From the NCBI RefSeq assembly GCF_000953015.1, contig NZ_LN794158.1, positions 1,426,001 through 1,490,000 of the forward strand: 64,000 nucleotides of DNA. Reading direction: 5' to 3'. The notes below the pieces were generated by a model, which was given only the letters and a program-made list of their open reading frames with translations, was not told where the DNA came from and did no database searches. This document shows, piece after piece, positions 58,261 through 62,706 of this stretch. How positions within the stretch are numbered: the stretch's first letter is position 1; each line of letters begins with the position of its first letter. This stretch comes from Candidatus Methylopumilus turicensis. Its GTDB lineage: Bacteria; Pseudomonadota; Gammaproteobacteria; Burkholderiales; Methylophilaceae. Made by a program: the position numbers and the translations under genes.

Positions 58261-59160
58261 CTAAACAACCAAGTCTAAACCTGTCAGCTTGGTATAAGCT
58301 TCGCGATATTTCTCACTGGTTTTTTCTGCCACATCATCAGGCAATATAGGCGCTGGCGGAGTTTTATTCCATCCAGAAGCCTCAAGCCAATCACGAACGT
58401 ATTGTTTGTCAAAGCTTGGCGGGTTCTTGCCTACAACATACTGATCTGCAGGCCAGAAACGAGATGAATCTGGCGTCAGCGCTTCATCAATGAGATAAAG
58501 CTCACCGACTGCATCGAGTCCAAATTCAAATTTAGTGTCGGCAATAATAATACCTCGTGTTAATGCATATTCAGCCGCTTCTTTGTATAACCGAAGACTC
58601 ACGCTTGAGACCTTTTCGGCGAGCGTTTGGCCTAAAAGTGATGCACATTTTTCTAAAGTAATGTTTTCATCATGATCGCCAACATCCGCTTTGCTAGATG
58701 GCGTGAAAATTGGCGCAGGCAATTTTGATGCCTCTTTTAAGCCCTCGGGAAGTTCAATCCCACACACAGTGCCACTGGTTTGATATTCTTTCCACCCACT
58801 ACCTACCAAATACCCACGCACAATCGCTTCGATTGGCAAAGGCTTGAGTTTCTTAACGACAAGTGCACGCTTTCCTAATTGCGCTTTTTCAGCAGGATCG
58901 CTCACGAGCGTGTCTGGGTTGATACCGGTCAAATGGTTAGGAATAATGTGCCCAAGTTTCGCAAACCAGAAGTTAGCGATTTCAGTCAAAATCGCACCTT
59001 TGTCTTTGATCGGCGTAGGCAAAATAACGTCAAATGCAGATAGCCTATCTGTGGCAATCAATAGCATAGTATCAGCATCGATATCGTAGATATCACGAAC
59101 CTTCCCTTGATGTAACAGCGGCAGACTCTTGATACTTGATTGCGTAAGCGTAGTAGACAA
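58261..59160 (-). CDS. purC: Phosphoribosylaminoimidazole-succinocarboxamide synthase
   Basis: A 299-residue SAICAR synthase of purine synthesis, of the longer (about 300-residue) form. [44 protein letters not shown] and [25 protein letters not shown] are clear signatures. TTG start with AGGAAAA 6 bases upstream. First gene of the purC-ykvA-can operon. Confidence 0.97.
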
Positions 59161-59292: not shown

Positions 59293-61350
59293 TTAAGCAG
59301 CAGAATATTGTTTAGCAAAAGCGGGAATTAAATCTGGGGGCAGCGCTTTACTATAGAGCCATCCCTGAACAGAGAATGGGACATTCTTTGGAATTTTGGA
59401 CAGTTGCTCTTCGCTCTCAACCCCTTCAACCACTAGAGATAGGCCCAAAGCTTCAGCAAAGTTGAAGATGCCGGACATGACTTTCTGCCCCCCCTCGGTT
59501 TCGAGGGCGAGGACAAAACTTCTATCCACTTTAATATAATCTGCATGCAAACTATTTAAATAACTTAATGATGAATAACCAGTTCCAAAGTCATCAATAT
59601 AAACCTTCCCGCCAAATGCATGAATACGTTTAATTGCATCAACCACTTCAACTAATCCTGTTGAAAAGTCCTGCTCAACAATTTCAATTGAAATTCTGCC
59701 TTTTGCTTGGCTGATTTTATTAATCAGCTCATTGGTCGCTACTTTTTCGCTTAACGTGGCACCGGTCACATTAATTTTTATTGGCACATCAACCCCCATT
59801 TCTTGCCAAATTGCATCTTGTTCTAGCACTTCACCCGCGACCCATAAATCAATACTTTTCATCAAACCAGCCTCGTCCAACCATGGTAAAAACTCGAAAG
59901 GCATAATCGTTTTTCCTGATTTTTCACGCGCGCGAGGTAAGGCTTCAGCCCCAACAAAATGCTTGGTTTGCACGGATACCTGGGGCTGATACTCCAAAAA
60001 GAAATCAAGCTCTGCTAAACGCTCTAGCTGCTGACGTTTGCGATTCTTTGCATGACGTAAGGTATTTGATTGCTGTACAACGTCATCCGAAAATAAGGAT
60101 GCCTCTTCTTGAAAGTGTGTATAAGTCATTTTCAATGACTTTAAATAAACATTCAGAGATTTTGAGCTCTCTCGTTCAATGACTTTTATAAAAGGACTGT
60201 AAATCATAGAACCAAGCATAATATTAAATAACTGTAAGGCGACTGCGTGAATGTCGTGATGCGTTGCAAAAAAAGCATTGAAGCCAATTAGACTATTGAG
60301 TGGAATAGTTGCATTAGGGATCGCCACCCAACCGAAGTTGATAACCGTCAAGGCAACCACAACATTCACCACTGGAACAACTAAAAATGGCACTAACATT
60401 TTTGGGTTTAAAATAATGGGAAGGCCGAATAGCAGTAGCTCATTGACGTTTAGTAGGCCGATTGGCACGCTAGCAACTGCTAGCAAACGTAATGTTTTAC
60501 TTCTAGAAAAAATTAATATTGAAATAATTAACGAGAACGTTGCGCCACACCCTCCCATAAATACAAAAGCACCCAAAAATGACTCGTTTACCAGGCCAAG
60601 TCCTGCGGCTGAGTTCTCTGTCAATTGCACCATTAATGGGTGTAAGACATTTGCCCCATGAATACCAAAAAACCACAATATAGAATTCAAACTCGTATAA
60701 AGAACACCCCCTAAGTAAGATGCACCAATCGATGCATCACTCAGAAAATCAGGAAAAATAAAAAAAGAACTGACATAAATCAACGCTTTGAGCGTGACGA
60801 AAATAATCGAAAAAACCACAATTCCAGGAATGGTCAAATTAAGCGCACCCTTCACATTCCCACCCGCAAAGTCAGCATCAGTAATTCTTGCCCACTTTTT
60901 TTGGTATAACCAATAAACTAAAGGCACCACAACAAAAGGAATAATGATGCCAATGATCAACATAAAAGTATCGGCGCGACTAGAGTCACCACCAAGCTGC
61001 TGTTTAGCAACAAGCGTAGAAATCAGAGCCAATAGAGAAACTGGCATGGGGGGTAAGCGCTTTTTAACGCTTAATATATAAGCAAGCGCACTCGTTGCGA
61101 TGATTGGTATCAAGCCTGAAAATATCTTATTTAAACTCGACAAATTAGCAACGAACTCAGGCGCAATTCCTATCAACTGAAACATAAAGGCGGTAGCAAC
61201 AAAAATGGCAGACATAATTGCGCATGGCAAAGTCCAAATCATCGCCTCTCTTAAATAAAAGATTGACTCGGTAGGTATCAGACGAATGAAATTCGCTCGG
61301 GCTAGCACCAAGACTCTCTTTAAATTACGTGCCGTCGATGTATGGTTCAA
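59293..61350 (-). CDS. PTS EIIC-like membrane domain fused to a c-di-GMP EAL phosphodiesterase
   Basis: A 685-residue fusion. Residues about 30-395 form a membrane domain like cellobiose/lactose PTS EIIC: GIHG (about 228-231, sugar-binding His) and LLNVNELLLFGLPIILNP (about 298-315, equivalent to the NEPxxFGxP signature with Glu kept). No EIIA or EIIB is attached. A linker of about 50 charged residues follows. The EAL domain runs from about 445: EAL (AEALPRARE, about 467), Asn of INVTG (about 526), Glu of IEIVEQD, DDFGTGYSSL (about 585-594), Lys of YIKVD, EGVE (about 642) and QG (about 661). All catalytic residues are present, so c-di-GMP hydrolysis is likely. TTG start with GAG upstream. A sugar-sensing role for the membrane half is inferred. 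Monocistronic; unusual. Confidence 0.9.
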   Translation of the reverse strand: MNHTSTARNLKRVLVLARANFIRLIPTESIFYLREAMIWTLPCAIMSAIFVATAFMFQLIGIAPEFVANLSSLNKIFSGLIPIIATSALAYILSVKKRLPPMPVSLLALISTLVAKQQLGGDSSRADTFMLIIGIIIPFVVVPLVYWLYQKKWARITDADFAGGNVKGALNLTIPGIVVFSIIFVTLKALIYVSSFFIFPDFLSDASIGASYLGGVLYTSLNSILWFFGIHGANVLHPLMVQLTENSAAGLGLVNESFLGAFVFMGGCGATFSLIISILIFSRSKTLRLLAVASVPIGLLNVNELLLFGLPIILNPKMLVPFLVVPVVNVVVALTVINFGWVAIPNATIPLNSLIGFNAFFATHHDIHAVALQLFNIMLGSMIYSPFIKVIERESSKSLNVYLKSLKMTYTHFQEEASLFSDDVVQQSNTLRHAKNRKRQQLERLAELDFFLEYQPQVSVQTKHFVGAEALPRAREKSGKTIMPFEFLPWLDEAGLMKSIDLWVAGEVLEQDAIWQEMGVDVPIKINVTGATLSEKVATNELINKISQAKGRISIEIVEQDFSTGLVEVVDAIKRIHAFGGKVYIDDFGTGYSSLSYLNSLHADYIKVDRSFVLALETEGGQKVMSGIFNFAEALGLSLVVEGVESEEQLSKIPKNVPFSVQGWLYSKALPPDLIPAFAKQYSAA

Positions 61351-61477: not shown

Positions 61478-61510
61478 TAAAGAAAAAGGGCCCGTAGGCC
61501 CTTTTTCTTT
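61478..61510 (-). terminator. Intrinsic terminator after pgk
   Basis: AGAAAAAGGGCC (61481-61492) pairs with GGCCCTTTTTCT (61497-61508) around CGTA. On the minus strand a T-rich tail follows the stem. It closes the tkt-gap-pgk run. Confidence 0.9.
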
Positions 61511-61530: not shown

Positions 61531-62706
61531 TTAGCTCCGTGATTCTAGAATCTCAACGGCGGGTAGTTTCTTACCCTCTAAAAACTCTAAGAAAGCACCA
61601 CCAGCGGTCGAAATGTATGAAACCTGATCGTAAATATTATATTTTTGGATCGCGGCGATCGTATCGCCACCTCCAGCCAAAGTGAATGCTTTAGTGTGAG
61701 CAATAGCCATTGCAATCGTCTTTGTACCTTCACCAAACTGATCAAACTCGAACACACCCAGCGGGCCATTCCAAACCACAGTACCCGCATTCATAATAAT
61801 ATTAGCAAGCTCCTGGGCAGACTTTGGACCAATATCAAAAATCATGTCATCAGGCGCAATCTTGCCAGCATCCTTAATCACCGCCGGTTCATTTGCATCA
61901 AAATGCTTTCCCGTCACCACATCAACAGCAATTGGCACAGCAGCACCGCGCTCAGCCATTTTGCTAATGAGTGCACGAGCCGTAGGAAGAAGGTCATCCT
62001 CACATAGCGAGTGACCAATCTCATGCCCTGTTGCTTTTAGAAATGTATTGGCGATGCCCCCGCCGACCACTAACTGATCTACTTTTTCAGATAAGCTTTC
62101 AAGTACGGTCAGTTTTGTAGAGACTTTAGATCCGCCGACAATGGCGACCATCGGACGAGCAGGGTTGAGCAAAGCCTTGCTTAAGGCGTCCAACTCCTGA
62201 GTAAGCAAAATACCGGCAGCAGCCACTGGCGCAAATTTAGCTACGCCGTAAGTCGAGGCCTCGGCACGATGGGCTGTTCCAAACGCATCCATTACAAACA
62301 CATCACAAAGTTTGGCATAAGCCTGCGCAGTTTCGTCTAGGTTCTTTTTTTCACCTGGATTAAAGCGACAGTTTTCTAACAAAACTAACTCACCATCCGC
62401 AATATCAAATCCACCAGCCACCCAATCTTTGATTAAGCGAACAGATTTTCCTAACTTAGCAGAAATAATGTCAGCAACAGGCTGAAGTGAATTCTCCTCA
62501 GAATAAACACCTTCTTCAGGACGACCAAGGTGCGATGTCACCATCACTTTTGCACCAGCATTGAGCGCGAACTCAATCGTCGCCATGGAGGCTGTAATAC
62601 GCGCATCGGAAGTCACTTGCCCATCTTTCACAGGCACATTTAAATCCGCACGAATAAATACACGCTTCCCCGACAAATCTAAATCGGTCATTTTAATAAT
62701 TGCCAT
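61531..62706 (-). CDS. pgk: Phosphoglycerate kinase
   Basis: A 391-residue glycolytic/gluconeogenic kinase. [31 protein letters not shown] and [12 protein letters not shown] are conserved signatures. Normal length. 9 bases after gap, so co-transcribed. Confidence 0.99.

Follow-up and report, generated by a model that had tools for sequence, protein, structure and literature searches.

Membrane domains of the PTS_EIIC type linked to GGDEF, EAL and/or HD domains are mentioned in a 2022 review, where they appear as a rare 'receiver' of c-di-GMP proteins (PMC8846402). Our searches of the open-access literature found no functional study of any EIIC-EAL fusion. A 2011 paper by Bordeleau on c-di-GMP in Clostridium difficile may mention the fusion. 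The EIIC-EAL architecture is already known, and the protein analysed here, from the lake methylotroph Candidatus Methylopumilus turicensis, is a little-studied member of it. It is not peculiar to methylotrophs, the setting in which the preliminary description of this gene had thought it striking: Vibrio, Tritonibacter and C. difficile are among the other bacteria that have relatives. In plasmid records, tblastn matches covering at least 80% of the query were obtained from Vibrio sp. THAF190c (36.6%), at least three Tritonibacter records and Pseudoalteromonas and, among the matches listed, shorter ones from a C. difficile plasmid record, Photobacterium and Acetoanaerobium. The six plasmid relatives that were fetched are all single frames of 673-703 aa carrying both domains. 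A class-wide search with the EIIC alignment matched 2 of 369 genomes, the genome studied here being one of them, and a phylum-wide search gave an EIIC match in 30 of 398 genomes with a verified fusion in 16 of these (this one plus 15 others, one of which comes from the same order; G794, a 689-aa frame, stands outside the fusion count), but the two samples differ and neither count represents a true frequency. In viral contigs, none of 41 pattern-fitting stretches encoded a relative.

The stretch of 64 kb analysed here (the window) lies in a single contig of 1,754,988 bases and has a GC content of 44.0%. Within it, the fusion gene is an uninterrupted frame over its full length (ORF check, Table 1), and both the coordinates and the two-domain composition proposed initially proved exact by ORF and Pfam analysis. 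The PTS_EIIC profile (PF02378) is matched from end to end (positions 1-319 of 319) with 75.6 bits for a cut-off of 30.7, and the EAL domain scores 174.5 bits for a cut-off of 31.3. Both domains are in a single open frame with the EIIC at the N-terminus, which makes the protein a member of the EIIC-EAL fusion family. By type, the EIIC half belongs with the lactose/cellobiose (Chb/Lac) domains, with a TIGR00410 match spanning aa 32-395; its best NCBIfam matches, cello_pts_IIC and lacE, reach 139.8 bits each, below their respective cut-offs of 434 and 236. From the end of the EIIC to a YQP-like motif of the EAL domain, the linker of every one of the 26 fusions compared measures 62-66 residues, while its sequence is variable. 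A chance ORF was ruled out by the presence of the gene in two other assemblies and by low dN. An AlphaFold2 model computed with the rows of the window protein, L001 and L002 was discarded (pLDDT 34.3, pTM 0.22).

Table 1. Features of the fusion gene and its immediate surroundings (positions are those of the window).
Feature	Position	Strand	Description	Basis
EIIC-EAL fusion gene	59293..61350	-	685 aa, TTG start	ORF + Pfam
PTS_EIIC domain	60373..61251	-	aa 34-326	Pfam
EAL phosphodiesterase domain (predicted)	59347..60024	-	aa 443-668	Pfam + residue alignment
Linker	59992..60189	-	aa 388-453, 66 residues	alignment of fusions
GIHG motif	60655..60666	-	aa 229-232; His231 aligns with 3qnq H250	
NELLLFGLP motif	60418..60444	-	aa 303-311; Glu304 aligns with 3qnq E334	
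Loop aa 159-177	60820..60876	-	transporter PxxVP + F missing; A159, A162, G163, L170 here	
pgk	61531..62706	-	upstream neighbour, conserved in genus	
purC	58261..59160	-	downstream neighbour, conserved in genus	
14-pair inverted repeat, terminator-like	61479..61510	.	between pgk and fusion gene	

How far the EIIC half has diverged from transporters was assessed by column comparisons, in which 'transporter' designates an EIIC without an EAL domain, by annotation or by EAL profile, some having a fused EIIB. Transporters were collected by accession (L061), with the window EIIC as query (L075, L076), with a ChbC query (L077-L082, L112-L117) or with a fusion profile (L095, L097-L099, L101-L108, L110, L111), and fusions were gathered by window or fusion queries, so that sampling was not blind. 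Columns were chosen on 11 fusions (window included) and 9 transporters and then tested on 15 and 20 held-out sequences, respectively, sets which contain close groups (e.g. L097-L099). Forty-five columns are common to at least 8 of the 9 transporters. Of these, 17 were classed as kept, being found in at least 10 of 11 fusions, 16 as absent, being found in at most 3 of 11, and 12 fall between. In the held-out sets, the kept columns match in 95% of fusion cells and 93% of transporter cells and the absent columns in 12% of fusion cells versus 80% of transporter cells; per sequence, 1-4 of the 16 absent columns are matched in held-out fusions versus 7-15 in held-out transporters. There are exceptions: 10 of the 15 held-out fusions do have the ChbC A27 column, although it is counted as absent, and the N170, L226 and G397 columns are found in only 9-11 of the 20 held-out transporters. 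The kept set includes W226, G229, H231, G232, the GGxG at 266-269, E304, G309, P311 and N315. The absent set includes the PxxVP and the F in a loop that has positive flanks and is probably cytosolic, the Pro of NEP, and the loop after GIHG, which is shortened in most fusions and which we judge to be periplasmic. Since the absent columns thus include a loop judged periplasmic, they cannot all be EIIB contacts. The Pro of NEP is not diagnostic on its own because 3qnq, in which PxxVP...F is present, has a Met at this position.

By sequence, a single relative of solved structure was identified, 3qnq_A ('PTS system, cellobiose-specific IIC component', E 1.3e-29), which we take to be ChbC of B. cereus, and in which H250, N333/E334, W245 and W382 presumably have sugar-site roles. 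The GIHG and NELLLFGLP motifs, noted from the start as retained in the EIIC half, both align with this structure, NELLLFGLP covering N333 in addition to E334. W245 of 3qnq is conserved in the window protein and W382 is replaced by Leu. In the held-out fusions, the sugar-site Glu and the GGxG are found in 15 of 15 and the Trp in 14; His231 is replaced by N or Q in 3 of 15 and is not a His in 7 of the 20 held-out transporters, and is therefore not decisive. One could imagine that the membrane half has retained its EIIC fold for folding only and does no more than anchor the EAL enzyme to the membrane and bring two copies together, either lacking a ligand or responding to membrane state or to partner proteins, as the varying parts of the sugar site (W382 to Leu, N or Q for His231) would allow. 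We find this unlikely: the 17 core columns are conserved in held-out fusions whose EIIC identity to the window protein is only 22-37%, which is beyond the needs of an anchor. These core columns may nevertheless serve folding, not sugar binding.

As was initially proposed, the EAL half has every catalytic residue: the 11 positions to which we assign catalytic roles (E469, R473, N527, E556, E559, D586, D587, K607, E642, E645 and Q662) are all filled as expected. The set is also complete in 10 of 10 aligned first-set fusions (the eleventh, L074, lies outside the alignment), in 15 of 15 held-out fusions, and in the close homologues L001 and L002, where the preliminary description had suggested looking for losses. 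A degenerate EAL domain acting as a c-di-GMP receptor (LapD/FimX type) was rejected because the catalytic set is complete. The domain should hydrolyse c-di-GMP, as predicted from these residues. The x of the EALxR motif is Pro472 in the window protein (59935-59937), and Leu in both L001 and L002, and all 15 held-out fusions have I, L, V or M there; a proline beside the EAL motif is unusual and may affect activity.

The fusion is the only PTS_EIIC of the genome according to a profile search that matches 7 of 14 control genomes. The search for EIIA and EIIB across the genome, which had been called for initially, returned no PTS_IIB (PF02302) and no PTS_IIA (PF02255) in profile searches that are positive in 6 and 3 of the 14 control genomes, respectively; it covered these two families. 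In the window, tblastn with seven queries matched no EIIA or EIIB, in agreement with the first impression that none is fused or encoded nearby. With the same seven queries, EIIA or EIIB was found near 0 of 26 fusion loci versus 18 of 29 transporter loci. In the first set, where flanks extend up to 6 kb (only 0.3-1.5 kb for L008 and L074), the split is 0 of 10 fusion loci, the window being likewise negative, versus 8 of 9 transporter loci; in the held-out set it is 0 of 15 versus 10 of 20, a weaker test for the fusions because their loci comprise about 1.4 kb upstream of the frame and only 0.2-0.7 kb downstream.

Parts of the general PTS are nonetheless encoded. The N-terminal domain of EI is present in the genome, and adjoining genes are, as we read their sequences, HPr-like, mannose-type EIIA-like and RapZ-like. 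The EI (ptsI-like) gene (L035:1061-1420, at about 109 kb of C1 of the same genome) loses its reading frame immediately ahead of the GGATSH motif, where the alignment with eight relatives shows a one-base gap. The open frame spans 224 aa, versus 575-589 in 8 of 9 other genus genomes and 416 in the ninth. The frameshift may be real or an assembly error. Salcher et al. 2019 (PMC6794327) credit 'Ca. Methylosemipumilus turicensis' MMS-10A-171 (1.75 Mbp, 44.5% GC) with a PTS for cellobiose. Because the genome has a single PTS_EIIC and neither PF02302 nor PF02255, this published statement probably rests on the fusion gene. The protein could still be a transporter, either a facilitator for unphosphorylated sugar or an EIIC that works with an EIIB not recognised as such, the EAL domain then reporting flux; the retained core motifs, the genes adjoining EI and the published cellobiose PTS all speak for it. 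However, IIB and IIA of the two families searched are missing genome-wide, EI is frameshifted in this assembly, the lacE score falls below its cut-off and columns common to transporter EIICs are missing, and we hold continued transport to be improbable.

We consider it fairly probable that the protein is instead a transporter-derived membrane receptor that would couple putative sugar binding to c-di-GMP hydrolysis. The EIIC half would bind a sugar in the former transport site, the natural guess for the ligand being a beta-linked disaccharide of the cellobiose/chitobiose kind. Without EIIB, this sugar could not be phosphorylated, so that neither its binding nor a rocking motion of the EIIC transport domain would serve PTS uptake; the resulting signal would instead reach the cytosolic EAL domain through the linker of near-fixed length. 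Both ChbC-type EIICs and EAL domains function as dimers, and an EIIC dimer would therefore place two EAL domains next to each other and may set their activity, which would then set the c-di-GMP level near the membrane. For such a receptor, sugar binding, coupling, enzyme activity and the direction of control are what we infer. The original suggestion of a sensor, not a transporter, fits the absence of PF02302 and PF02255 from the genome, the missing transporter columns beside retained core and sugar-motif columns, the narrow range of linker lengths and the fusion loci devoid of EIIA and EIIB.

The genome has 5 GGDEF matches and 5 EAL matches, fusion gene included, and no PilZ match genome-wide. 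Elsewhere in it, a PAS protein which from its motifs we take to be HD-GYP-like (L054, 100-1125) lies beside a GGDEF protein (1177-2130). In another protein, of 611 aa (L060:427-2259), an EAL match precedes a partial GGDEF match; several of its EAL motif residues look altered and, for this reason, it is probably not an active phosphodiesterase. Motility is stated to be lost in planktonic Methylophilaceae in the same study by Salcher et al. 2019 (PMC6794327). Given this published loss and the lack of a PilZ match, the other half of the original suggestion, a striking link between sugars and biofilm control, is speculation.

The fusion gene lies between two genes that we name pgk and purC from sequence. 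The repeat that separates it from pgk is listed on the plus strand but, being nearly symmetric, may also end pgk on the minus strand, and promoter-like sites around the pgk-fusion region show no excess (5 found for a shuffle mean of 6.2). Among 10 genus genomes, the pgk-purC site holds an intact fusion in 3 (G000, G099 and G100), a decayed one in 2 (a two-piece remnant, aa 542-684, in G104 and a 57-residue remnant in G105) and none in 5, where the aligned ends of pgk and purC are about 144-210 bases apart. Loss of the fusion gene across the genus fits genome streamlining. A search of 187 genomes of the family, in which six candidates were scored per genome, gave only three near full-length copies of high identity among the matches listed, and a distant EIIC-EAL protein in G072. 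Comparison of the three intact copies gives a dN of 0.07-0.11 for the domains (dS saturated or at least 1.29), 0.08-0.10 at full length (dS saturated or above 2.8) and 0.08-0.18 for the short linker; most pairs gave no usable YN00 estimate, and dS by NG86 often reached saturation. Low dN together with high dS indicates purifying selection on both halves in the genomes that retain the gene. This bears on the idea of a relic gene that is being lost as the genomes of the genus shrink, and that in this strain has an open frame but no selected function: the scatter of intact, remnant and absent copies, Pro472 and the lack of PilZ all point that way, but the full-length dN and dS values of the intact copies do not, and we regard a relic as very unlikely.

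In an EIIC tree of 54 rows, a single branch splits 26 fusions from 28 transporters with a support of 95/97 (L111, 377 aa at a locus end, was dropped from this tree and kept in the column and neighbour tests); the same split is seen at 55/91 with 20 rows. Midpoint rooting leaves four fusions (L008, L040, L041 and L096) on the transporter side of the root and, as a result, a fusion clade is not established. The EIIC tree needs 1 change; the EAL tree, from which L060 was left out (it was missed by the motif search), needs at least 2, forced by starred branches, and only 2% of its bootstrap trees need 1. Judging from these trees, the EAL halves give no support for a single fusion event. In both domain trees with few rows, the three Methylophilaceae copies group with the Vibrio protein (100/98); the larger EIIC tree places them in a clade of 13 fusions (100/100) whose internal branching is not firm and which includes L090, from the window's own order. 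Because the fusion is rare in the family, our guess is that the gene was transferred into the genus ancestor, vertical descent with many losses being a possible alternative.

Several observations count against a sugar receptor, namely the Leu in place of W382, the variable His231, the two changes of the EAL tree, Pro472, the lack of PilZ and the decay or absence of the gene in 7 of 10 genus genomes. It is tempting to go further, and we do so tentatively: EIIC-EAL proteins may form a separate and old receptor family, present in Proteobacteria and Clostridia, in which a permease became a 'transceptor' once or twice, signalling by c-di-GMP hydrolysis without PTS phosphate, and of which at least one member has been misread in print as a transporter. 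If this is true, sugar would be the signal to which c-di-GMP enzymes of this class respond, an input that we found described nowhere, and the family would show cleanly how a transporter can become a receptor, besides providing a correction to the published cellobiose-PTS statement. The column signature could also help annotators to separate sensors from transporters.

The closest known relatives of the membrane half are ChbC and the lactose-cellobiose EIICs (3qnq_A and E. coli ChbC), which belong to the same family and share the GIHG and NE motifs at 26-30% identity. Unlike them, the window protein is fused to an EAL domain, and no EIIB partner was found for it; the fusion lacks the PxxVP...F loop and the N270/G287 loop, and the Pro of NEP is replaced. 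The Vibrio sp. THAF190c protein (L036) and its near twin L083 are full-length homologues (36-37% identity in the EIIC, 40-41% in the EAL) and share the clade of the window protein in the domain trees, but they come from another host and L036 has other gene neighbours. EIIC domains are not known to be phospho-acceptors. Since no EIIB was found, sugar binding seems a likelier input than phosphate, and for both reasons we set aside the phosphorylation reading given in the 2022 review (PMC8846402): its proteins resemble the window protein in having a PTS_EIIC in a c-di-GMP protein, but it treats the EIIC as a phospho-receiver, whereas no EIIB was found in the window's genome to pass the phosphate. 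A functional parallel may be found in Vibrio cholerae where, according to a study of PdeS and EIIA-Glc (PMC6877527), the sugar state controls a c-di-GMP phosphodiesterase via a PTS protein. There, the soluble EIIA-Glc interacts with PdeS in a way that is modulated by the phosphorylation state of EIIA-Glc, whereas the window protein carries its own fused EIIC and would need no EIIA.
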